DNA of 64,000 nt, from the NCBI RefSeq assembly GCF_014202905.1, contig NZ_JACHHY010000022.1, forward strand, positions 1-64,000, given 5' to 3'. The position numbers and the translations under genes are program-made. Source of the DNA: Chitinivorax tropicus (GTDB lineage: Bacteria; Pseudomonadota; Gammaproteobacteria; Burkholderiales; SCOH01). The notes beneath the pieces are model-generated. The model worked only from the letters and a program-made list of their open reading frames with translations. It was not told the origin of the DNA and made no database searches. This document shows positions 8,577-28,894 of the stretch, piece after piece (the first letter of the stretch is position 1; each line of letters starts with the position of its first letter).

Positions 8577-10793
8577 ATGCGCCACGATCCTATCCAAGTC
8601 GTACCCGCTTTGGTGTCCAGTCTGTTTGCCACATCCGGCGTGCTTGTGGCGGCGGTTCCTGCCGATTCGGATTTCAATAAAGATGAAGCCCGCCGCTATG
8701 TCCATGAGCGCTCAGCCGAGACGTTTTCCATGGCCAATCAGATTCTCTGTTATTTCAACCAGACCAAGTACCCAAGCTTTGTGAACAAGGGGCCTTACAA
8801 GGCATTGGTCGATCAGAAGTTGTGCAATGCCAATCGAGACGATGCCAGCAACAGCACGAACGGCGAAAGCACAGCTGACAATTCGCCACATTACATGGAC
8901 TGGATCGTAGACGTTACCCGTGCCAACAGCACCGCACCCCAGCTTGCCAAGTTCTGGGTGACCGACATCGGCAGGGCAGATAAGCCGGGGATGAAAATCC
9001 TGGTTTCGATGACGGCCACCGAATCGGCCACGAGCACCAATCCTTATGGCCTGTTCAAGCTGGATTTCATTGGCTATCCCTTGATCAACGGGCAGGTGCA
9101 GACGGCGCAGCCACAGATGAAAGGCTACATCGAGGTTGCCAAAGATGGCACGGGTGCCCCACAGCTGTCTTTCTTTCAGGAGGAGCTGGATCGCCAGAAT
9201 GGCCAGCCAAGAACGGACGCTGCAGTGATTCAACGCACTGCGGATGGAGGAGCCGGATCAGGCAAGACATTGGAAAAAGACAAGGGTTTTGCGTTCGCAT
9301 TCAATAGCAGCTTGTTCCTGCGCTCATCGGACTCCGGCAATGCCTGTTTCAGCCGCGACCAGACCGAAGACACGTCCTGGCGCTATGCACTATATGACAG
9401 TGTGACCGGTGCCAGGCTGGAGGTGTCGTCCGGGTTTCCCATTCGCGTCACGCAAGGCAGCAAGAGCTATCAGGGCTGGGTGGGATACTGGGGGCTGCAT
9501 TTCCCAGAAAGCGTCGTGCTGAATCATGGCGACACGGTGTTCAAACAGTCTTTTGGCAACAACAGCACCACCACTGCGTACACCTTGCTGAAGGCTGGCG
9601 GGCGTTTACAGCAGCATGTGCGCAAGACCCTGACACTGGCCGATATGGCTGGTGTACTGCTGGATTGGCAAACTGTCGGTGGCACCACCCGTTATCAGAT
9701 CAAGTGGGAAAAAAGCCAAGGCAAATTCTTCAAGGTTAAATCCATGCCAGCCCAGCAGCATAGCGGCCCGCCCCAGTGGACTGAGATCGATCCACCTGTC
9801 GCGCTGACCAGCAGCGATCTACAAAACGAGTTTGACCTGAATGCCTGGTCCCAGGCCCTTGGCGGCTCGATCCGTATCGCCATCAAGGAGCCCGACCCGA
9901 GCAAACCTGGCGGTGCCAGGGTCAAATCTTTGAGCAACGATTCAGAAGCAACCATCATGGTACAGACCCCAGTTGCGCCAGGTGATGCCGTCCCTGCCAC
10001 GCTGGCATGCTACGAGCGCTGCCCCGACCCCAGCAAATTCGGGCAGGCTGGGCAACAGCCCTATAAAGCCTTCAACTCGGGGCGCCATGATTACAGCTTT
10101 GACAGCACAGCCATGGTTTTGAAGGAGGGTACGACACCTGTGGTGTTGACAGCGGCGGTCGATGGTACGCGCGATGTGCGAAGCGGGGCATTGTTTGAGC
10201 CCTCGCCTGGCAATCTTGCCAAACTGGCCTGTGATTGGAACCCTGCGGAAACCTGCTCGTGGAAAGCCTGGCAAGCATTGGATGTCTTCTACTCGTGGCA
10301 GACCGGAGTCGATAACTGGAATCAACTGGCCTTGTTGAAGGACGCACAGGGGAATGTGCTCAAATTCGACCCACCGAAACTGGTTACATTGGCTTATACC
10401 AATGCCGCGTTGGGCTTCAATGAAACCAAATTTCAATTGGAGTATGGCGGATTTGGCGATCTGCACGGGATACCCGGCGATTGCCTTGACCCGGAAACCA
10501 ATCTGAAAGCCGCCTGCGGGCCAAGCAAACGCTTTGTGCCGCTGTTCTCGATCGCCACCGGAACCGAGGTGGCAGACGCCGCGCCCAATAGCCTGAAGAC
10601 CTATCTGGTCAAAGCACTGGAAACCGAGCAGCGCCTGAAGAAGATCGACCTGGGCCAGTGCAGCACGCTGAGTTTGCCAGGTGCCAGCATGGTGCTTCCG
10701 ACCAGTGCACGCTTCGTCACGCCTGCCATCGGTGATGAGCCTTCGGTAGCTGGCGGGGCCTCGGTTGTGGGCGGGGTCATCAAGGCACAGTAA
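8577..10793 (+). CDS. Large exported protein of unknown function (738 residues)
   Basis: I do not recognise a characterised domain. The ATG at 8577 follows AGGGGGAAGCC, so independent initiation is possible. Residues 8-25 (VVPALVSSLFATSGVLVA) are hydrophobic and could be a weak signal, but the in-frame lipoprotein leader just upstream is a better one. The mature part begins PADSDFNKDEARRYVHERSAETF and NQILCYFNQTKYPSFVNKGPYKALVD, is hydrophilic, has scattered cysteines and many aromatic residues, and reads like a secreted or outer-membrane-attached protein. The stop overlaps the next start as TAATG, so it is coupled to the TonB-like gene and probably to the C13 peptidase. I recall similar two-part proteins in gammaproteobacteria, but this is not checked. 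Confidence 0.6.
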   Translation: MRHDPIQVVPALVSSLFATSGVLVAAVPADSDFNKDEARRYVHERSAETFSMANQILCYFNQTKYPSFVNKGPYKALVDQKLCNANRDDASNSTNGESTADNSPHYMDWIVDVTRANSTAPQLAKFWVTDIGRADKPGMKILVSMTATESATSTNPYGLFKLDFIGYPLINGQVQTAQPQMKGYIEVAKDGTGAPQLSFFQEELDRQNGQPRTDAAVIQRTADGGAGSGKTLEKDKGFAFAFNSSLFLRSSDSGNACFSRDQTEDTSWRYALYDSVTGARLEVSSGFPIRVTQGSKSYQGWVGYWGLHFPESVVLNHGDTVFKQSFGNNSTTTAYTLLKAGGRLQQHVRKTLTLADMAGVLLDWQTVGGTTRYQIKWEKSQGKFFKVKSMPAQQHSGPPQWTEIDPPVALTSSDLQNEFDLNAWSQALGGSIRIAIKEPDPSKPGGARVKSLSNDSEATIMVQTPVAPGDAVPATLACYERCPDPSKFGQAGQQPYKAFNSGRHDYSFDSTAMVLKEGTTPVVLTAAVDGTRDVRSGALFEPSPGNLAKLACDWNPAETCSWKAWQALDVFYSWQTGVDNWNQLALLKDAQGNVLKFDPPKLVTLAYTNAALGFNETKFQLEYGGFGDLHGIPGDCLDPETNLKAACGPSKRFVPLFSIATGTEVADAAPNSLKTYLVKALETEQRLKKIDLGQCSTLSLPGASMVLPTSARFVTPAIGDEPSVAGGASVVGGVIKAQ

Positions 10794-11515
10794 TGATGTC
10801 AGGTCAGGCGGCCCCTCTGCCATGTCGTTACAGTTCGTCCGACATGAGAAGGTGGGTGCTGCCTGTTGCGCTGGCTCTGTTGCTCCACGCCTTGCTGTTC
10901 AGCCTCTGGCAGGCCCCCAAGCCGCAGCTGCGACGCCCGCATTTCAGCTTATGGGTCACACTGGCCAGACCTGAAATCGCTGCGCCCAAGACAATGCACA
11001 ATCAAGTCGAGGTATTTCACGACCAGCGCACCGCCACACCCTCTCTGCCCCAGGCCACCCCACCGGCATTGACAGCCAACGCCCCCCTGCCCGCCAGAGC
11101 GCTTGCTTCAGCTGAAGTGGACATCGACCCGCCCACAGCCAACCAGCCCTTGGCTTGGCCCCACCAGCCGACCACATCAGCACCGCCGTCGAGACATCCC
11201 TTCATTGAGCAGCAGTGGATCGATCAATTAGGCCATCAACTCGCATCGCGGATCGCCACCCTGCAATTCGCCTTTCAGGGCCAGCTGCCCAGGCTGAGCT
11301 GCCGCGTCGTGTTGCAGGCTGGTGCTGCCGAACAGCTCGACTGCACCGACCCTGCTGACGCACGTTGGTTGGCGCAGTTCTTTACTCCCCATCTGTTGCC
11401 ACAACCACCCTCTGCCTTGGCCGGACAGCAGTACACCATCGTATTGGATTGGCAGACCCCAGGCAGCTTCCAGATTAGCACCAGCCCAGCCTCTGCCTTG
11501 GCTGAAACGGAATAG
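10793..11515 (+). CDS. TonB-like membrane-anchored periplasmic protein
   Basis: A 240-residue protein with one membrane segment (about residues 20-40, RRWVLPVALALLLHALLFSLW), a Pro/Ala/Thr-rich linker (about 60-135) and a compact C-terminal domain with two cysteines (about 140-225). This layout matches TonB/TolA-type envelope-spanning proteins, though the C-terminal domain is not clearly the TonB fold. The start at 10793 overlaps the previous stop as TAATG; ATGs at 10796 and 10844 are alternatives, the last giving a signal-anchor beginning right at the membrane segment. Co-translation with the exported protein suggests envelope attachment or transport of that protein. Function is inferred from layout only. 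Confidence 0.5.
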   Translation: MMSGQAAPLPCRYSSSDMRRWVLPVALALLLHALLFSLWQAPKPQLRRPHFSLWVTLARPEIAAPKTMHNQVEVFHDQRTATPSLPQATPPALTANAPLPARALASAEVDIDPPTANQPLAWPHQPTTSAPPSRHPFIEQQWIDQLGHQLASRIATLQFAFQGQLPRLSCRVVLQAGAAEQLDCTDPADARWLAQFFTPHLLPQPPSALAGQQYTIVLDWQTPGSFQISTSPASALAETE

Positions 11516-11623
11516 TCATCACCAACCCGGTGCAACGGCAAGCACTGACCAAGGTACGCTTTGAAATAGAAAAACACCACAGGCCCGATATAATCCCCAC
11601 AGTCCCTATTGAGCACATTTGTA

Positions 11624-13033
11624 ATGAAAGCCCTGTGGCGATCTTTTTCCCGTAATCTGTGGGCCGGGCTGCGGCTGTTGATGTTGCAACCCGTGGCCGT
11701 GCGTGACTTCCGCAGCCGCCCGGAGCAGCTGACCCTATTGATACTGACCGGGGCCGTGCTTGAAATCCTGCTCTGCCAAGCCGAATTTGGCGGTGAGGGT
11801 GATATCAATTGGGTCACCTTACCCAATTTCCTTTCGCTGACCATGAAGGACTTGGCGCTGGGCATGGTGTTGGCCTGGTTTTTTCGCAATCGTCGGCTAT
11901 TACTATGGTGGCCTGTCCTGGTGTTATCGGCGGACATCTGGCTTTCTGTGCTCTGCTGGCCATTGGTGAAATGGGCTGGGCTGCGGTTACACAGCCCTGA
12001 CCTGGCTAATTCATCCCTCATCAGCGGCGTGATGATGGGGCTGATGCTGTGGTATTTGATGACGATTCTGCTGGCGCTCAAACGGACACTGGCCATCTCA
12101 CTCCGCAGCACCTTGCTGATTGGCGCGGCGCTGATACCACTGCAGTTTGTCGCCTCCACATTCTATGACGACCCACTTTGGCTCCCCACGCCAGCCGAGG
12201 CACAAACTGGCGCCCAGAGCTGGCCCGAGCCTGCCCCGCCCCGCTTGCTGGATGAATCATTCCTTTACAACGAGCAAGCCAGGCTGACGGCACAGCTATC
12301 AGCGGTCGAACCTAGCCGAGAGGGGGTCGTCGATACCTATTTACTGGCCGTGGCGGGCGATGCATCCCAGCGGGTGTTCAAGCACGAGGTACAGGCGATC
12401 CAACAGTTGTTCGATAGCCGGTTTGGCACCCGTGGCCGGTCAATCACGCTGGTCAACAGCCAGGACACCGCCGGGACATTGCCATTGGCTACACGATCCA
12501 GTATCGACACGGCCATCCAGCATATCGCCCACCAGATGGATCGACATGAGGACATGCTGGTTCTCTACCTGACATCACATGGCAGCAAGCAACACGAGTT
12601 TCAGTTGAGCTTCGATCCGCTGGACTTGCCCCCCGTCACGCCCGACTGGCTGAAAGAGGCATTGGATCGGGCAGGCATCCGTTGGCGGGCAATCGCCGTG
12701 TCTGCGTGCTATTCAGGTGGCTTCATTCCACCACTGGCCAATGACACCACCTTGATTGTCACCGCCGCCGACGCCCAGCATCCCTCATTCGGTTGTGAAG
12801 ACCGTGAGCAATTCACCTATTTTGGGCAGGCCATGTTCAACGAAGCACTGCGCAAGACAGATGACTGGCAACACGCCTTTCAAATGGCTCAGGCGGCGAT
12901 TCTGCAACGTGAAAAACAAGAGGGGTATGATCCATCCAACCCACAGATTTCGATCGGGCGCGCTTTTAGCGAACATTGGATGGGGGCGCTGGCGGGACGT
13001 CAAGCCGATAGCGGCGTCATGCCAAACAAATAA
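11624..13033 (+). CDS. Membrane-anchored C13 (legumain-like) cysteine peptidase
   Basis: A 469-residue protein with several N-terminal membrane segments (about residues 25-185) and a C-terminal clan CD caspase-like domain. The catalytic pair is visible: His in YLTSHGS (H319) and Cys in VSACYSGG (C362), each after a hydrophobic strand, the signature of family C13. This family includes plant legumains and the GPI-transamidase subunit, and bacterial members often sit next to exported proteins. The ATG at 11624 is preferred over a TTG at 11609. It follows the exported protein and TonB-like gene after about 100 bases, so it may process the large exported protein. That pairing is inference. Confidence 0.8.
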   Translation: MKALWRSFSRNLWAGLRLLMLQPVAVRDFRSRPEQLTLLILTGAVLEILLCQAEFGGEGDINWVTLPNFLSLTMKDLALGMVLAWFFRNRRLLLWWPVLVLSADIWLSVLCWPLVKWAGLRLHSPDLANSSLISGVMMGLMLWYLMTILLALKRTLAISLRSTLLIGAALIPLQFVASTFYDDPLWLPTPAEAQTGAQSWPEPAPPRLLDESFLYNEQARLTAQLSAVEPSREGVVDTYLLAVAGDASQRVFKHEVQAIQQLFDSRFGTRGRSITLVNSQDTAGTLPLATRSSIDTAIQHIAHQMDRHEDMLVLYLTSHGSKQHEFQLSFDPLDLPPVTPDWLKEALDRAGIRWRAIAVSACYSGGFIPPLANDTTLIVTAADAQHPSFGCEDREQFTYFGQAMFNEALRKTDDWQHAFQMAQAAILQREKQEGYDPSNPQISIGRAFSEHWMGALAGRQADSGVMPNK

Positions 13034-22226: not shown

Positions 22227-23738
22227 TCAGCGGATCACTTGCGCCCAATCCTTCTCAAAATAGTGCACCAATGATTGGTTGTTGAGCCGATTGGGCTCTA
22301 CCTCAATACGTTGCATATCAGGTGGAAAGCTGAACATCAGCTTGGTGCTGTCACCATCCAGAAACCGCATCGGTAGCCGATAGCGGCTTGGTGGCACAAA
22401 TCCTTCATGTTTGGCGGCAATGATGAAACCCCACTCCCCGAAGCTGGGTACATAGGCGTGATAGGGCCAGGTCTTGAAACCCGCCTCACGCAAGGTGGCA
22501 TCAATGCACCAATAGGAACGCGCTGCGTAGAAAGGCGAGGTGGACTGGATCACCATCAGGCCCCGCTCAGCCAGGTGGCGCGACATCAAGCGATAGATCG
22601 GTACCGAATAGAGCTTACCCAAGCCAAAGTTGGAGGGGTCGGGAAAATCCACAATGATGGCGTCAAACTGGTCGGTATTGGTTTCCAGCCACTGTCCAGC
22701 ATCTGCATTGATGACGGCCAACCGCTTGTCGGTCAACGAGCCTCTATTCAACGCCACCAACGGCCCTGCTTGAGCAAATAGCTTGGTCATGGCCGGATCG
22801 AGATCCACCAAGGTGATGTGTTCGATGTTTGGGTAGCGCAGTACCTCTCTTGCTGCCAACCCATCCCCCCCGCCCAGGATCAGTACCTTCTTGGCAGCGG
22901 GCAATGATTCCAGCACCGGATGAACCAATGCTTCGTGGTAGCGGTGCTCATCGCGAGAGGAGAATTGCAGATTACCGTTGATATACAAACGTAAATCGTC
23001 TTTCCACTTGGTCACCACCAATCGCTGATAGGGCGAGGTTTCCGCGTGGATCACCTCATCACCGAACATGACCTTCTCCGACCACCGGGTCAACTGATCT
23101 GATGCAACAAAACCCAATATCAAGATGCCGAGCACCATGCCTGCACGGAAGGTCTGTGCGTGGAAGCTTTTCAATTCGCTCCGGAAAATATAAGCCGTGT
23201 AAAGCGCCACACCAGCATTCAACATGCCGAATACAAGGCCGGTTCGCGACAACCCAAGCTTGGGCGCCAACACCAGCGGGAACAGCAGTGATACGGCCAA
23301 TGCGCCAAGATAGTCAAATGTCAGCACCCGACTGACCAGCTCTTTGAAACCCGCTTGACGTGCATTCAATACCCGCATGACCAGCGGGATCTCCATGCCC
23401 ACCAACATGCCGATCACAAACACCATTGCATACAACACGGTACGAAACGGCGCAGACAGCCAAGCAAATATCATGAACAGCACTGCTGCGGACAAGCCCC
23501 CGACCAACCCCACCAGCAATTCGATCTCGATGAATCGCGCCAGCGTGTCTTCATCTTTCACATATTGCGAAAGATGTGACCCGACACCCATCGCAAACAG
23601 GTAACATCCGATGATGGAGGAGAACTGCAGTACGGAATCCCCCAGTAGATAGCTACTGAGTGAAGCCGCGATCAACTCATAGGCCAATCCGCATGATGCG
23701 ACGATGAAAACGGACAAAACAAGAACGCGATTGAGCAT
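22227..23738 (-). CDS. Membrane-bound spermidine-synthase-like aminopropyltransferase
   Basis: A 503-residue protein. The N-terminal 210 residues hold about six to seven membrane segments (from LSVFIVASCGLAYELIAASLSSYLLGDSV). The C-terminal half is a class I methyltransferase-like spermidine synthase domain with SPYQRLVVTKW, VLILGGGDGLAAREVLRYPNIEHITLVDLDP and DAIIVDFPDPSNFGLGKLYS. Spermidine synthases transfer aminopropyl from decarboxylated AdoMet to putrescine. Members with this membrane half are of uncertain substrate and may modify something at the membrane. The ATG at 23738 is preferred to a TTG at 23747. It is divergent from the DUF350 gene, a pairing also known elsewhere in proteobacteria. 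Confidence 0.82.
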   Translation of the reverse strand: MLNRVLVLSVFIVASCGLAYELIAASLSSYLLGDSVLQFSSIIGCYLFAMGVGSHLSQYVKDEDTLARFIEIELLVGLVGGLSAAVLFMIFAWLSAPFRTVLYAMVFVIGMLVGMEIPLVMRVLNARQAGFKELVSRVLTFDYLGALAVSLLFPLVLAPKLGLSRTGLVFGMLNAGVALYTAYIFRSELKSFHAQTFRAGMVLGILILGFVASDQLTRWSEKVMFGDEVIHAETSPYQRLVVTKWKDDLRLYINGNLQFSSRDEHRYHEALVHPVLESLPAAKKVLILGGGDGLAAREVLRYPNIEHITLVDLDPAMTKLFAQAGPLVALNRGSLTDKRLAVINADAGQWLETNTDQFDAIIVDFPDPSNFGLGKLYSVPIYRLMSRHLAERGLMVIQSTSPFYAARSYWCIDATLREAGFKTWPYHAYVPSFGEWGFIIAAKHEGFVPPSRYRLPMRFLDGDSTKLMFSFPPDMQRIEVEPNRLNNQSLVHYFEKDWAQVIR

Positions 23739-23837
23739 AATTGGCAAGGCGACGCAGGTGATCGTTCACGAATACGAAGAAGCACTCTAGAATACAATCT
23801 AAACCTGCGCTGTTACCAATACTGACTAAGGCTCACG

Positions 23838-24224
23838 ATGGAACTTGCATACAATTACTTGATTCATGTCCTATCTGCTTTCGCCCTATTGGCTCTGTTT
23901 GCCGGTATTTACATCAAATTCACTCCATTCAATGAGCTGTCCCTGATCCGTGATGGTCACTTGGCACCAGCCTTGAGCTTTGGCGGTGCGCTGGTCGGTT
24001 TTTCCATGACACTTGCTTCCAGCATCATGCACAACCCCAGTTGGTTAGCATTTCTGACCTGGGCGGCAACAGGTATGATCGTACAATTGGTTGCCTATGT
24101 GCTGACCAGCCGCATGCTGCCGCATATGAATGAATCACTGCAGCAGGATAATGTTGGCATGGGTGCCTTGATGGGCTCGATCTCGCTGTCTGTCGGGTTG
24201 ATCAACGCCGGCTGCATGTCCTGA
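23838..24224 (+). CDS. DUF350 membrane protein (YjfL-like)
   Basis: A 128-residue inner-membrane protein with four hydrophobic segments (about 8-28, 45-66, 70-92 and 108-126) and the DUF350 pattern: FTPFNELSLIRDGHLAPALSFGGALVGF followed by MGALMGSISLSVGLINAGCMS. DUF350 proteins resemble E. coli YjfL and have no firm function. They recur next to aminopropyltransferase-like, PspA-like and glutathionylspermidine-synthase genes. Here the gene is divergent from the aminopropyltransferase-like gene across 99 bases that must contain both promoters. Confidence 0.8.
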   Translation: MELAYNYLIHVLSAFALLALFAGIYIKFTPFNELSLIRDGHLAPALSFGGALVGFSMTLASSIMHNPSWLAFLTWAATGMIVQLVAYVLTSRMLPHMNESLQQDNVGMGALMGSISLSVGLINAGCMS

Positions 24225-24677
24225 GCCAAGCAGGAAGGCGCAACGCAAGTTGCATTGGCAAGCTGTGATATCAATATCTATAACTGCTTTGGCCGATTTG
24301 ATCGAATGATCAACCTGTACAGTAATATTGTCTTTTGGAATGAATACGTCAGCGATGAAAGACTCATTCATGAAATGGGTTGAGCGGTCTTGCCATTGGT
24401 TGCGCAAACGGCAGCCCCCTTGCCATTTGCAGCTTGATGGCCGGGCGCTGGTACGCTGACATCATGTACTGCCGGGTATTGGCGATGTATTGACCAGCCG
24501 ATGCCCTCAAGTTCTACTGGCGAGATCTTATGGATACGTCAGCAGCACTCGACCCTACAGGGCCAATCCGTTTTTTGCTTTGCTGGCGGGTTGATTTGCC
24601 AATGGATCGACAAAAGCTAAGCAACCAATTGGATACCACACCCCTCGTTGTGGTACGCCTAGTTTGAAGGAGTAATC
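24225..24677. other. Gene-free stretch upstream of SPFH gene, with leader dyad
   Basis: No gene is visible. TACCACA (24634-24640) and TGTGGTA (24649-24655) form a 7-bp dyad with an 8-base loop, placed 23 bases before the SPFH start, as an operator or leader hairpin. Confidence 0.35.
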
Positions 24678-25718
24678 ATGGGTATTGGCTCATTTATCAA
24701 GAAACAGTTCATAGACATCCTGCATTGGACAGAAGAAGACGATGGCGTCCTGGCCTATCGCTTCCCAATGCAGGATATGGAAATCCAGAACGGCGCCAGC
24801 CTGACCGTACGTGACTCGCAGATGGCTGTGTTCGTCAACGAGGGCAAGGTCGCGGATGTATTCGGCCCCGGTCAGTACAAACTCACCACCCAGACGCTGC
24901 CGGTACTCACCTACCTGAAAAACTGGGACAAGCTGTTCGAATCACCATTCAAGAGCGACCTGTACTTCTTCAGCACCCGCATCCAGCTGGGTCGCAAATG
25001 GGGCACGCCACAGCCGATCACAATCCGTGATCAGGATTTCGGCATGGTGCGCCTACGTGCTTTCGGCATGTATTCCTACAAGCTGGTTGACCCCAAGCTC
25101 TTTTACACAGAGGTCAGCGGCACCCGTGAAATCTATACGCGGGACGATCTCGAAGTGCAGTTACGCAACCTGGTCGTAGCCACCATGACCTCAACCCTGG
25201 GCGGGGGGGGCGTACCATTCCTCGATATGGCGGCCAACCAGCTGTTGATGGCCGACAAGATGAAAGAGGCTCTGGCCGACGCCTTTGCCAAATATGGCTT
25301 GGCGCTCGATAACTTTGCGGTCGAGAACATTTCCCTGCCGGAAGAGCTGCAAAAAGCCATCGACACCCGCATCTCGATGGGCATGATCGGTAATATGCAG
25401 ACCTACACCCAATACCAGACGGCCAATGCCATTCCACTGGCCGCCCAAAACGAAGGAGGTCTGGCTGGTATCGGTGCTGGCTTGGGGGCAGGGGTACAGA
25501 TCGGCCAGGTGATGGCGCAGACTATGGGGCAAGCCACCGCCGCACCAGCAGCCCCTGTTGCGCCAGTGGCGTCCGCAGCCGTTGCCCCGGCAGCACCCAC
25601 GGAAGATGCCCCTGAAGCACGGCTGGAAAAGCTGAAAGGATTGCTGGATAAGGGACTGATCTCACAGGCAGATTTCGACAATGCAAAAGCCGAAATCCTC
25701 AAGAAACTGATTGGATAA
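24678..25718 (+). CDS. SPFH-domain protein with C-terminal SHOCT domain
   Basis: A 346-residue protein of the virion-core-like SPFH family. The SPFH/band-7 region spans about residues 30-250 (SLTVRDSQMAVFVNEGKVADVFGPGQYKLTTQTLPVLTYLKNW; later AFGMYSYKLVDPKLFY). A Gly/Ala-rich and Pro/Ala-rich linker (about 260-312) leads to a SHOCT domain ending RLEKLKGLLDKGLISQADFDNAKAEILKKL. SHOCT modules occur at the ends of many membrane-associated proteins. There is no membrane segment, so it is probably peripheral and oligomeric. GAAGGAG precedes the ATG. The next gene (DUF4178) follows after 111 bases, a common pairing. Confidence 0.82.
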   Translation: MGIGSFIKKQFIDILHWTEEDDGVLAYRFPMQDMEIQNGASLTVRDSQMAVFVNEGKVADVFGPGQYKLTTQTLPVLTYLKNWDKLFESPFKSDLYFFSTRIQLGRKWGTPQPITIRDQDFGMVRLRAFGMYSYKLVDPKLFYTEVSGTREIYTRDDLEVQLRNLVVATMTSTLGGGGVPFLDMAANQLLMADKMKEALADAFAKYGLALDNFAVENISLPEELQKAIDTRISMGMIGNMQTYTQYQTANAIPLAAQNEGGLAGIGAGLGAGVQIGQVMAQTMGQATAAPAAPVAPVASAAVAPAAPTEDAPEARLEKLKGLLDKGLISQADFDNAKAEILKKLIG

Positions 25719-25829
25719 GTCGTTCGCGTCCAATGACAGCATCAGCCTGCATTGCCGGCCAGCTCGGTGGCTGGTCGGCCTCATTGATTGATCAGCGGGT
25801 GTCCAAGACACCGCAGAATACCCAAACGC

Positions 25830-27347
25830 ATGTATAAAGTTGCCTGCCCCGCGTGTGGCGCCGAAGTCCAGTTCCGTTCCGCCATGTCTGTCATGGCGGT
25901 ATGTGAATATTGCCAATCCACCTTGATGCGCGACGCGGAATCCGTCAAGGACATGGGTAAGATGTCAGCGGTGATCGAGGACTTTTCACCGATCCAGATC
26001 AATACCACCGGCATTTACCAGGGCAAGGCATTTGGCGTGGTGGGTCGCATCCAATTGCGGTATGACGCAGGCTTCTGGAACGAATGGTATGTATTGTTCG
26101 ATGATGGCAGCCCTGGCTGGTTGTCAGATGCCTCTGGCAAATATGTCATGACCCTGCCGCTGGCAGCGCCGGCGAAAATGCCCGCCTTTGACCAGATCAA
26201 ACCGGGTAACACCATCACGCTCGATAAAGCCAGCTTTACCGCCTGCGACGTACGTACCGCACAATGCACTGGCGGGCAGGGCGAGCTGCCTTTCCGCGTC
26301 GGAGAGGGCTGGCAAGCGCGTGTTGCCGATTTCCGCACCAAAGACCGTTTTGTCACACTGGATTTCTCAGATGACAGCACCCCCGCCGCTTATCTGGGCA
26401 ACGTTGTCACATTAGACAGTCTGCAATGCCAACTATTACGGACTGAAGACCAGATTACTCAGAGAGCGGGCAAGCTGAGCGGCAAGATGATGACGCTGGA
26501 GTGCCCCAGCTGCGGCAGCCCGCTCAAATACCGTGCCGGGGCGGCCATGCAGGTCACCTGCCCAGCCTGCCATGCCGATGTCGATTGCACGGGCGATAAA
26601 GCCATTGTGCTGCAAAAGCACAGTGAGTTGGCGCAAATCACCCCCTCCATTGCACTTGGCTCGATCGCAACGATCGATGGCATTCGCTGGAACGCCATTG
26701 GTTTCATGCGCTGTCGCGAGACCCGAGACCCCACGGAGTGGACAGAATACCTGTTCTTCCACCCATTGAAGGGCTTCATGTGGCTGGTCGAAACCGATGA
26801 TGGCTGGGACAAAGTCGAGGTGCTGGACACTTGGCCAGACCAATTTTCTGCCAGCGCCGCACGGCTAGGTCAGATCAGTTACATCAAGTATGTCGAATAC
26901 GGTAGTGAGGTGATATACGCTGCCGGGGCATTCAACTGGCGGGTATCCGTTGGCGACAAAACCTGGATCACCGATTACCGGCAGAACGGCCAGAAACTGA
27001 CACAGGAGCGATCCAGCAACGAGATCAGCTGGTCACGTTCCGAATCGGTCAGCGCCGAACAGATCGCAAGCTGGTTGGGGAAGCCCCACAAACAAATCCC
27101 CAGCAAGGCCATTGACCGCGACGACGATGACGAAGTCTCACCCTTGAAAGGTACAGCCAAGGCGCTCACCTGGATGCTGCTGATTCTCAACATCCCGATC
27201 TTGTTTGGCAGTGGCTTTGCAGGGGTCATGATCATCCTGTCTGGGCTGTTGGCGCTCTGGTGGCCGATTCTAAAAAATAAAGACGATGGTGACGGCGACT
27301 ATGGCAGTGGTGGCGACGGGGATGGTGGCGGTGGTGGAGGTGACTGA
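25830..27347 (+). CDS. Zinc-ribbon DUF4178 membrane protein
   Basis: A 505-residue protein with two DUF4178 units, each headed by a zinc ribbon: CPACGAEV then CEYC at residues about 5-28, and CPSCGSPL then CPAC at about 220-245. Each DUF4178 part has the IQLRYDAGFWNEWYVLFDDGSPGWL or RETRDPTEWTEYLFFHPLKGFMWLVETDDGW pattern. Two hydrophobic segments (about 445-485) anchor the C-terminus, followed by an Asp/Gly-only tail. The ATG at 25830 puts the first ribbon at the N-terminus, where it belongs. Such proteins recur with SPFH, DUF350 and spermidine-synthase-like genes; the function is not established. Confidence 0.8.
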   Translation: MYKVACPACGAEVQFRSAMSVMAVCEYCQSTLMRDAESVKDMGKMSAVIEDFSPIQINTTGIYQGKAFGVVGRIQLRYDAGFWNEWYVLFDDGSPGWLSDASGKYVMTLPLAAPAKMPAFDQIKPGNTITLDKASFTACDVRTAQCTGGQGELPFRVGEGWQARVADFRTKDRFVTLDFSDDSTPAAYLGNVVTLDSLQCQLLRTEDQITQRAGKLSGKMMTLECPSCGSPLKYRAGAAMQVTCPACHADVDCTGDKAIVLQKHSELAQITPSIALGSIATIDGIRWNAIGFMRCRETRDPTEWTEYLFFHPLKGFMWLVETDDGWDKVEVLDTWPDQFSASAARLGQISYIKYVEYGSEVIYAAGAFNWRVSVGDKTWITDYRQNGQKLTQERSSNEISWSRSESVSAEQIASWLGKPHKQIPSKAIDRDDDDEVSPLKGTAKALTWMLLILNIPILFGSGFAGVMIILSGLLALWWPILKNKDDGDGDYGSGGDGDGGGGGGD

Positions 27348-27844
27348 GTCCTGTTGCATCGACCATGATGGCGGCCCATGTTGACCACATGGCTATGTTG
27401 TCATGGATTCAAGCCCAACAAGCCTCTCATCACAATACTCGGAGGGCTGCCCCACTCACCAAGCAATGACAATGGCAATATTAACTCGAAAATACGTAAC
27501 TCATATGCCATTTGTTGATCCAAGCCGTGTTACACTCACATCGTCCATTTATTCCAATGGATGCATGTTGGATCGCCATCAAAACAGTGTGAGTCATCAG
27601 GCTAATCACCAAACCCAACATGCCGGGGAAACGGAAATATTCATCATTCATGATATTCTGTCATGCAGCCAAGCTGATTGTTCAGTGACATATTGATTGC
27701 ATGGCATGAGATACATGCACCAATGGGTATTCCAAATGTGATCAATCACCAGGCTGGTGTGTAATCCGCCTGGAAAGACCACATCAATTAGCTGATCGCA
27801 CCAGCGCCAGCTGACCGGTGTTTGGTTTTGTTGGACAACATGGC
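27348..27844. other. Gene-free stretch before metallopeptidase
   Basis: About 500 bases, AT-richer than the flanking genes, with no credible reading frame or strong hairpin. It presumably contains the metallopeptidase promoter, which I could not locate. Confidence 0.35.
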
Positions 27845-28894
27845 ATGATTCGCTTTATCCGATCGCTCGCACAGCGCTTTCAATCCCAGTCAACCACGAC
27901 ACCCTGCGTGCTGGACAATCGCACAGCACCTGAACAGATCACATCCGTAGATCAACCTGCCCTGGCATGGTCGTCGGTACTCAGCACCCGGCAGGGCTAC
28001 CCGTTTGCTGATTGGCAGGCCATCACCAAATGGCTCGGCACAATCAAAGGTGAGCGCGCCCAGGAGCTCACCTGGATGACCTGCCAGCAAGGTTGGTTAC
28101 TGCATCTGAAACAAGCGCTCGGCCCCCAATTTCACCTGCAGGAAAGCGGCAAAGCCATGCTGCTCTCGTCACTGGCCCCCAATGTTGCCAAAGCCACACT
28201 GGACTACATCGAGCAGACACGGCGACGGTTGTTCGGCCTGCTGGAAAGCATCGCCAGACCTGACTCACCAGGCAAGGTATTGATGGTCGTGTTCGATGAC
28301 GCTGACCAGTATTACCGTTACGTCTGTCAGTACTACCCGGACAAAGGCAAGTTCGCACTCAGCAGCGGAATGTATATCTATCATGGCTGTGGACACTTTG
28401 TGACCACCAAAGCCGATCTGGCGATGATCGAACCGATCATCGTGCATGAAATGGCTCATAGTGTGCTGTCTTACCTACCACTACCCGTCTGGCTGAACGA
28501 AGGCATCGCCGTCAGCAGCGAACGACGGCTTGCCGGGGTATCAGCCCCAAAGGCGGATCTTAGGGAACAGCACCGACAGATCTGGAACGACCAGACCATT
28601 CAACAATTCTGGTCGGGCGATGCATTCATGGCCAGCGAGCTCAGTCTGCTGGCCTATGACCTGGCTCAAACGGTTGTCGAGCAACTTGCCAGAGATTGGC
28701 ATGGATTCAGGCGCTTTGTCGCCGCCGCCCACCGAGATAACGCTGGACAGATCGCCGCCGCCGATATCCTGGGTATCGACCTAGGCAGGTTTGTCGCATT
28801 GATCATGACCAAAGACGAAGACACCGACTGGTCACCTCAACCACATCGCTGGGCCACCAGCACCAACAAACCTGAGTTGGTGGCCGTGATCTAA
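27845..28894 (+). CDS. Peptidase MA-like zinc metallopeptidase
   Basis: A 349-residue gluzincin-type protease. The zinc motif is HEMAH (H201-H205) with the third ligand E219 in WLNEGIAVSSE, the spacing of the peptidase MA superfamily. An N-terminal region of unknown fold (1-130) precedes it, and no signal peptide is visible, so the location is uncertain. The ATG at 27845 is chosen over a GTG at 27818 because neither has a good ribosome-binding site and the ATG is standard. It lies downstream of the SPFH/DUF4178 pair, but a 500-base gap makes a shared transcript doubtful. The substrate is unknown. Confidence 0.75.
   Translation: MIRFIRSLAQRFQSQSTTTPCVLDNRTAPEQITSVDQPALAWSSVLSTRQGYPFADWQAITKWLGTIKGERAQELTWMTCQQGWLLHLKQALGPQFHLQESGKAMLLSSLAPNVAKATLDYIEQTRRRLFGLLESIARPDSPGKVLMVVFDDADQYYRYVCQYYPDKGKFALSSGMYIYHGCGHFVTTKADLAMIEPIIVHEMAHSVLSYLPLPVWLNEGIAVSSERRLAGVSAPKADLREQHRQIWNDQTIQQFWSGDAFMASELSLLAYDLAQTVVEQLARDWHGFRRFVAAAHRDNAGQIAAADILGIDLGRFVALIMTKDEDTDWSPQPHRWATSTNKPELVAVI

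Follow-up and report, generated by a model that had tools for sequence, protein, structure and literature searches.

A scattered member of a published type of 7TM-SpeE gene cluster in Chitinivorax tropicus, with a probable role in membrane aminopropylation

The window analysed here is a stretch of 64,000 nt of contig NZ_JACHHY010000022.1 from Chitinivorax tropicus (order Burkholderiales). It holds a cluster of genes for a SpeE-like aminopropyltransferase fused to seven transmembrane helices (7TM-SpeE), a DUF350 protein, an SPFH protein with a C-terminal SHOCT domain (SPFH-SHOCT) and a zinc-ribbon DUF4178 protein. With a probability of roughly 60%, we read these four genes as the core of a membrane aminopropylation system with six parts. 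On this reading the other two parts, an S-adenosylmethionine (AdoMet) decarboxylase (SpeD) and a flavin amine oxidase, come from genes at other places in the genome, and the acceptor would be not putrescine but probably a component of the envelope. The system as such is already in print; the host locus is a new, scattered member of it.

A conserved cluster in the Burkholderiales

Gene neighbourhoods were compared in stretches of up to about 20 kb, fetched around the DUF4178 gene in the 41 remaining genomes that carry it in an order-wide sample, and at 53 named loci added by similarity to the DUF4178 protein of the window; the two sets partly overlap (the Andreprevotia locus, for example, is both L051 and L082). 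One locus, L047, is the second and weaker DUF4178 match of its genome (G061) and has no gene of the DUF4178 cluster, yet SpeD is present; it was excluded when loci were counted, which brings the total from 96 to 95. Among the 42 order genomes with DUF4178, the window included, the stretch holds DUF350 in 41, 7TM-SpeE in 36, the oxidase in 34, SPFH in 30 and SpeD in 26; contig ends cut some of the stretches short. The commonest arrangement (11 of 42) has the oxidase and SpeE running leftward, followed by DUF350, SPFH, DUF4178 and SpeD running rightward. Over the 95 DUF4178-anchored loci, SPFH is found at 83 and the oxidase at 76, PspA is absent throughout, and 54 loci carry all six genes, four of them (L076, L118, L127 and L128) on a single strand.

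Four of the genes, 7TM-SpeE, DUF350, SPFH-SHOCT and DUF4178, are by this comparison members of a conserved cluster, and a neighbouring metallopeptidase-like gene is not. The initial annotation, which worked from the letters of the window, had grouped all five as families that recur together; for the first four the co-conservation indeed extends beyond pairs, while the metallopeptidase gene occurs at two of 96 loci, the window and the same-genus locus L037. A five-gene unit that includes the metallopeptidase would fit its position next to the cluster in these two genomes, but the gene did not turn up in the stretches fetched for the remaining 94 loci and lies behind a gap of about 500 bp, which makes such a unit highly improbable. 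When the neighbouring genes were clustered, no cluster beyond the six families and a short form of DUF350 recurred in more than 11 of 96 loci. The short form, about 71 aa and thus half-length, stands before SpeE in place of the full form before SPFH (as at L053, L061 and L177), and clustering places it at 20 of 96 loci, with L177 in addition. In G231, two DUF4178 genes share one cluster (L074:7610-9325 and 10630-12150) with SpeD between them.

Co-occurrence across genomes

The presence of each family was scored in one and the same set of 250 genomes of the host's order. DUF4178 occurs in 42 of them and 7TM-SpeE, over its cut-off, also in 42, and the two sets of genomes are identical. The oxidase likewise occurs in 42 genomes, namely 41 of the DUF4178 carriers and G159; the mismatch concerns two genomes of one genus, G120 (680 contigs) and G159 (440 contigs, 86% complete), and may come from assembly gaps. 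SpeD is present in 41 of the 42 DUF4178 genomes compared with 48 of the 208 others, and an SPFH orthologue in 31 of the 42, while 20 of the 208 others have an orthologue or paralogue. The match between the families also holds where the genes lie far apart (G201 and G231), and the co-occurrence is therefore more than linkage. In 36 of the 42 genomes no second SpeE match of 130-200 bits was found among the at most five candidates scored per genome, which makes the 7TM enzyme the likely user of decarboxylated AdoMet.

In genome G195, of the same genus as the carrier G121, DUF4178, 7TM-SpeE and the oxidase all went unmatched; the genome has a short SPFH match with two stops (G195:C24:36439-36633) and a partial SpeD match (G195:C12:75154-75372), a pattern that looks as if the system had been lost as a unit.

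SpeD and the amine oxidase lie elsewhere in the genome

The host genome contains a single AdoMet decarboxylase match, at C2:168036 (TIGR03330, 121.8 bits against a cut-off of 75.65), with no evident signal sequence by eye, and a single close homologue of the oxidase, at C2:248174-249760, which is 52% identical to the Andreprevotia protein and passes the Pfam Amino_oxidase model (2.2e-8). The N-terminus of the oxidase shows, by eye, a twin-arginine motif and a lipobox-like LTGC; a motif typical of the twin-arginine translocation (Tat) pathway is present in 58 of the 64 oxidases scored, out of 68, and export via Tat is predicted. At L137 (1984-6767), two large chitinase-like genes, recognised by eye, lie near the relocated oxidase gene.

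As SpeD and the oxidase both lie elsewhere in the genome, we reject the earlier suggestion that the locus is a minimal form: judged by gene content it is dispersed. At L037 SpeD has stayed at the locus, where it adjoins the metallopeptidase gene, and a solute-binding-protein-like gene follows farther along; since a similar gene (by eye) lies near SpeD on C2 of the host, a rearrangement is suggested to have parted SpeD from the cluster. Two other partners had been called missing. A whole-genome search did not find a GSP_synth-family ATP-grasp gene (PF03738), and there is no PspA match at the window locus, although an unlinked homologue at C3:20752 exceeds the PF04012 cut-off.

Organisation of the host locus

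The open reading frames and family scans bear out that the five genes described at first are real and correctly placed, with SpeE and DUF350 divergent. The likely starts given below (ATG 23738, ATG 25830 and ATG 27845) were chosen by comparison with relatives.

22227-23747, minus strand: 7TM-SpeE open reading frame, 506 aa; NF002956 689 bits against a cut-off of 472
22227-23738, minus strand: 7TM-SpeE from its likely start ATG 23738, set by alignment to relatives
about 23064-23738, minus strand: region of seven helices in 7TM-SpeE, residues 1-225
about 22230-23063, minus strand: C-terminal aminopropyltransferase domain of 7TM-SpeE, residues 226-503
23739-23837, no strand: divergent intergenic region between 7TM-SpeE and DUF350, 99 bp between likely starts
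23838-24224, plus strand: DUF350 (YjfL-like) protein; PF03994 1.5e-33; four hydrophobic helices by hydropathy
24550-24631, plus strand: probable relic of a SnoaL-like gene, inside the DUF350-SPFH gap (24225-24677)
24678-25718, plus strand: SPFH (Band_7_1) protein with C-terminal SHOCT; PF13421 2.4e-76, PF09851 1.2e-7
25788-27347, plus strand: DUF4178 open reading frame; PF13785 5.2e-25, two DUF4178 stretches
25830-27347, plus strand: DUF4178 from its likely start ATG 25830; four CxxC pairs, C-terminal hydrophobic helices
27818-28894, plus strand: HExxH metallopeptidase-like open reading frame, likely start ATG 27845; not a conserved member

The wide gaps reported earlier are equally real, with 453 bp between DUF350 and SPFH and about 500 bp between DUF4178 and the metallopeptidase. 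Inside the first of them lies what is probably the remnant of a SnoaL-like gene still present in relatives: the 82 nt at 24550-24631 share 87% DNA identity with the corresponding site of L037 and give a tblastn E of 0.002 to a protein of L038, and in both of these same-family genomes the gene between DUF350 and SPFH has a SnoaL_2 match. In L037 a PGAP1-like alpha/beta hydrolase gene (10023-11234) lies between SPFH and DUF4178, where the window has 111 bp. One weak promoter-like match falls in the divergent intergenic region (23765-23793); in the region as a whole, promoter-like sites (5 against a shuffle mean of 5.3) show no excess, and terminator-like sites (7 against 6.0) were counted as showing no excess over shuffles.

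The SPFH-SHOCT protein is 60-80% identical to five homologues; in six sequences of the family the best 19-residue hydropathy reaches only 1.2-1.5, in Gly/Ala-rich segments, and two membrane helices do not stand out clearly. In the DUF4178 proteins, all eight Cys of the CxxC pairs (zinc ribbons) are invariant in 45 sequences. A structure model of DUF4178 (predicted local distance difference test, pLDDT, 85) matched no chain of the PDB above Z 4.7 (root-mean-square deviation, rmsd, 2.8, 59 aligned), and the Foldseek TM-scores listed were mostly about 0.1; as a model-based comparison this is uninformative and gives no evidence of a new fold. The metallopeptidase has an HEMAH motif, seen by eye, and a sub-threshold Peptidase_MA_2 match (8e-4, 19.7 bits against a cut-off of 32.4), so that its family label is weak.

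Fold, conserved residues and acceptor of 7TM-SpeE

The AlphaFold model of 7TM-SpeE (pLDDT 88.8) consists of seven long helices and a C-terminal domain whose best structural match is the Thermus polyamine aminopropyltransferase 1uir (Z 35.4, rmsd 2.9, 278 aligned); plant thermospermine synthase 6bq2 follows with Z 33.8 (rmsd 2.2, 262 aligned). These two structures and a second Thermus one, 3anx, share the fold of the domain and match residues about 215-499 only, whereas the host domain is joined to seven helices. The catalytic Asp pair and the GGGDG site are kept in all 50 of the 7TM-SpeE sequences compared. The contrast set comprised 18 soluble SpeE-like proteins of the order, from 17 stretches, which the family profile matches only from position 219. 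Tyr267, His268, Asp314, Asp346, Asp364 and Asp367 are present in 50/50 7TM-SpeE and 18/18 soluble proteins, while Arg266, Arg297, Thr400, His427 and Phe433 are invariant in the 50 7TM-SpeE sequences and occur in 0, 3, 0, 1 and 3 of the 18 soluble ones, respectively. A further 33 sequences, 32 of them from outside the order, have Phe433 in 33 and Thr400 in 27 cases.

One reading is that 7TM-SpeE is an ordinary spermidine synthase, tethered to the membrane by chance, and that the set merely supplies spermidine. The enzyme has the fold and the catalytic Asp pair of spermidine synthases, the NCBIfam name of the family is polyamine aminopropyltransferase, and the genome's only other PF01564 matches score far lower (56.6 and 24.8 bits against 131.6 for 7TM-SpeE). 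Against this stand the family-specific residues, unlike those of the soluble enzymes, and the polyamines of Ralstonia pickettii, for which PMC7857480 reports putrescine and 2-hydroxyputrescine though the species carries the set; two R. pickettii loci (L093 and L105) have all six genes, and their strains may differ from that of the polyamine report. Chance tethering would, moreover, not account for the co-occurring Tat-type oxidase, DUF350 and DUF4178, and we consider it quite unlikely. The changed residues, together with the R. pickettii polyamines in a species that has the complete set, make putrescine an improbable acceptor. In a 2019 paper in Biochem J, which also speaks against an ordinary spermidine synthase, the fusion reportedly fails to complement a speE deletion, and spermidine is said to be absent. 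A literature search yielded, among the matches listed, no paper that we recognised as giving the acceptor or the topology of 7TM-SpeE. A defence-system reading was set aside; PADLOC matches were weak or limited to the SpeE transferase fold (mad2 1.6e-15, residues 282-424).

On which side of the membrane does the catalytic domain lie?

Hydropathy gives seven helices in 46 of the first 50 7TM-SpeE sequences and six in the other four, and seven in all 33 further sequences, or seven in 79 of 83 overall. Counts of Lys plus Arg in fixed loops place the N-terminus inside in 50/50 (mean 9.8 against 2.3) and 33/33; an automatic count agrees in 49 of 50, one six-helix sequence being scored with its N-terminus outside. 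As controls of the automatic method, LacY came out right (12 segments, N-terminus inside) and AmtB unclear (13 segments called). From the odd number of helices and the inner N-terminus, the aminopropyltransferase domain of the family is predicted to lie outside the cytoplasm, in the same compartment as the Tat-exported oxidase. We hold this prediction at only about one in three, because a cytosolic cofactor would need transport and helix 7 could be peripheral. Two further lines were tried as topology evidence and set aside. Loop conservation is mixed between samples: outer against inner loops score 0.81 against 0.65 in the first 50 sequences (a difference of this size arose in 7 of 10000 permutations), 0.51 against 0.50 in the further 33 (3886 of 10000) and 0.60 against 0.51 in all 83 (353 of 10000). 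Low cysteine does not discriminate, at 0.16% in the domain against 0.90% in soluble SpeE, but 0.10% in SPFH and 1.05% in the oxidase.

Just as tentatively, 7TM-SpeE could work in the manner ascribed to MprF: a cytosolic domain would aminopropylate a lipid of the inner leaflet or a small molecule, the helices would flip the product outward to the oxidase, and helix 7 would be peripheral. Decarboxylated AdoMet is expected in the cytosol, where the host SpeD should reside for want of an evident signal sequence, and the charge pattern of the other loops fits equally well if helix 7 does not cross the membrane. Helix 7 is, however, hydrophobic throughout, its best 17-residue Kyte-Doolittle mean averaging 2.02 in the first 50 sequences and 2.38 in the further 33 (lowest 1.45), and the count of seven helices is nearly constant.

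SPFH and PspA-CesT as alternative modules

At the level of the phylum, 39 of 349 sampled genomes have a 7TM-SpeE match above its cut-off. The phylum loci examined were 33 that the other samples did not contain, 32 of them outside the order; PspA and CesT are found together at 17, SPFH at four, both modules at none and neither at 12. Over all 128 loci, a few of which are counted in both the order and the named samples, SPFH and PspA-CesT never occur together. By their distribution the two modules are alternatives around one core, with lineage and module confounded. PspA, which the initial annotation had listed as an absent partner, thus looks like an alternative to SPFH instead of a lost gene. 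G571 has two 7TM-SpeE genes on two contigs (L171 and L172), with family-profile matches of 2e-161 and 2e-89.

The replacement of PspA-CesT by SPFH in otherwise similar clusters also bears on a reading put forward by the initial annotation and in PMC11237479, namely that the set is a surveillance module for envelope stress, akin to the phage-shock protein (PSP) system, with polyamine or aminopropylation state as the signal. The PspA homologue at C3:20752 would suit it, but at 29.8 bits this protein is far under the phage-shock PspA model cut-off of 242.95, and no conserved regulator was seen among the recurrent gene clusters. We regard the surveillance role as unlikely, though less so than an ordinary spermidine synthase.

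A working model

What follows on acceptor, product, scaffold role and physiological purpose we infer from the families and their co-conservation. SpeD, a decarboxylase by family membership, would make decarboxylated AdoMet; 7TM-SpeE would move the aminopropyl group to an acceptor other than putrescine, probably an envelope component; and the Tat-type oxidase, if exported as predicted, would work at the periplasmic face, on the product or on amine by-products. SPFH-SHOCT, DUF350 and the zinc-ribbon DUF4178 may hold the enzyme in an inner-membrane assembly, with SPFH filling the role that PspA-CesT would fill in related clusters. Should the catalytic domain prove periplasmic, decarboxylated AdoMet would pass through the membrane helices to the active site, an envelope molecule would be aminopropylated, and the Tat-exported flavin oxidase, sharing this compartment, would go on to oxidise the new amine. 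Such amine chemistry would take place in two steps outside the cytoplasm, with SPFH or PspA scaffolds organising it from within.

Several observations weigh against the six-part system. SPFH is absent from 12 of the 42 loci, and 11 of the 42 genomes have only a more distant SPFH paralogue, located elsewhere; conversely, G010 has an SPFH orthologue (C113:15543-16550, 2.7e-169) without DUF4178, an over-cut-off 7TM-SpeE or an oxidase match. The statistics of the co-occurrence profiles ignore phylogeny. In the phylum the oxidase is found at three of 33 loci, all three among the four SPFH loci and none among the 17 PspA loci, and its similarity to amine oxidases of solved structure is remote (best PDB E 6.1e-7). 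The 18 soluble enzymes of the residue comparison are hand-picked and diverse, with Glu at the Thr400 position in 4/18 only. Finally, the host has a second, weaker PF01564 match (C2:111698, E 5.8e-15), which by eye lacks the GGGDG motif.

Relation to known systems and outlook

A system that Li et al. are said to have described in Biochem J in 2019 combined an AdoMet decarboxylase with a fusion of a major facilitator superfamily (MFS) protein and spermidine synthase, and with DUF350; it would share with the host a membrane-fused SpeE-like enzyme, SpeD in the genome and DUF350 as a neighbour. The closest relatives are operons of 7TM-SpeE, DUF350, DUF4178 and PspA-CesT and a band-7-SHOCT variant of them, which is found in operons with AdoMet decarboxylase and polyamine oxidase and has two membrane helices between band-7 and SHOCT, as described in PMC11237479 (mSystems 2024); a third group there has an ATP-grasp ligase related to glutathionylspermidine synthetase. 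The mention of PspA-like genes in related clusters, and of polyamine-type chemistry at the inner membrane, by the initial annotation agrees with that paper. The host shares with the clusters described there the spermidine-synthase-like domain fused to seven helices, DUF350 and DUF4178, with SPFH-SHOCT in the place of PspA-CesT, and with the band-7-SHOCT variant SpeD and an oxidase (of presumed polyamine substrate) in the genome, linked in relatives. Unlike those clusters as described, the host has SpeD and the oxidase unlinked, no GSP_synth ATP-grasp gene that our search found and no PspA at the locus, and its SPFH protein, judged by hydropathy, has no clear pair of membrane helices where the variant is given one.

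Other likenesses are more partial. The PSP system proper has PspA at its locus, and the window locus has none. The Escherichia coli yjfIJKLMC genes include DUF350 (YjfL), the PspA-family YjfJ and YjfC, named a peptide-spermidine ligase in the record annotation, but no 7TM-SpeE, SPFH or DUF4178 is annotated there and DUF2170, DUF2491 and DUF1190 proteins are present. In the Bacillus subtilis ydj operon (pspA, zinc-ribbon, TPM and band-7), compared by its description in PMC11237479 only, band-7 adjoins a zinc-ribbon membrane protein, as here, but that description names no SpeE, DUF350 or DUF4178.

7TM-SpeE enzymes are widespread in the phylum, yet their acceptor is not given in the literature covered. 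If the periplasmic placement of the catalytic domain is true, they would include an AdoMet-family transferase that works outside the cytoplasm, for which we know of no precedent. The dispersal seen in C. tropicus means that genomes with scattered genes do not thereby lack parts of the system, and the families to bring together in a reconstitution are indicated by those that co-occur across the order: 7TM-SpeE, DUF4178 and a Tat-type oxidase.

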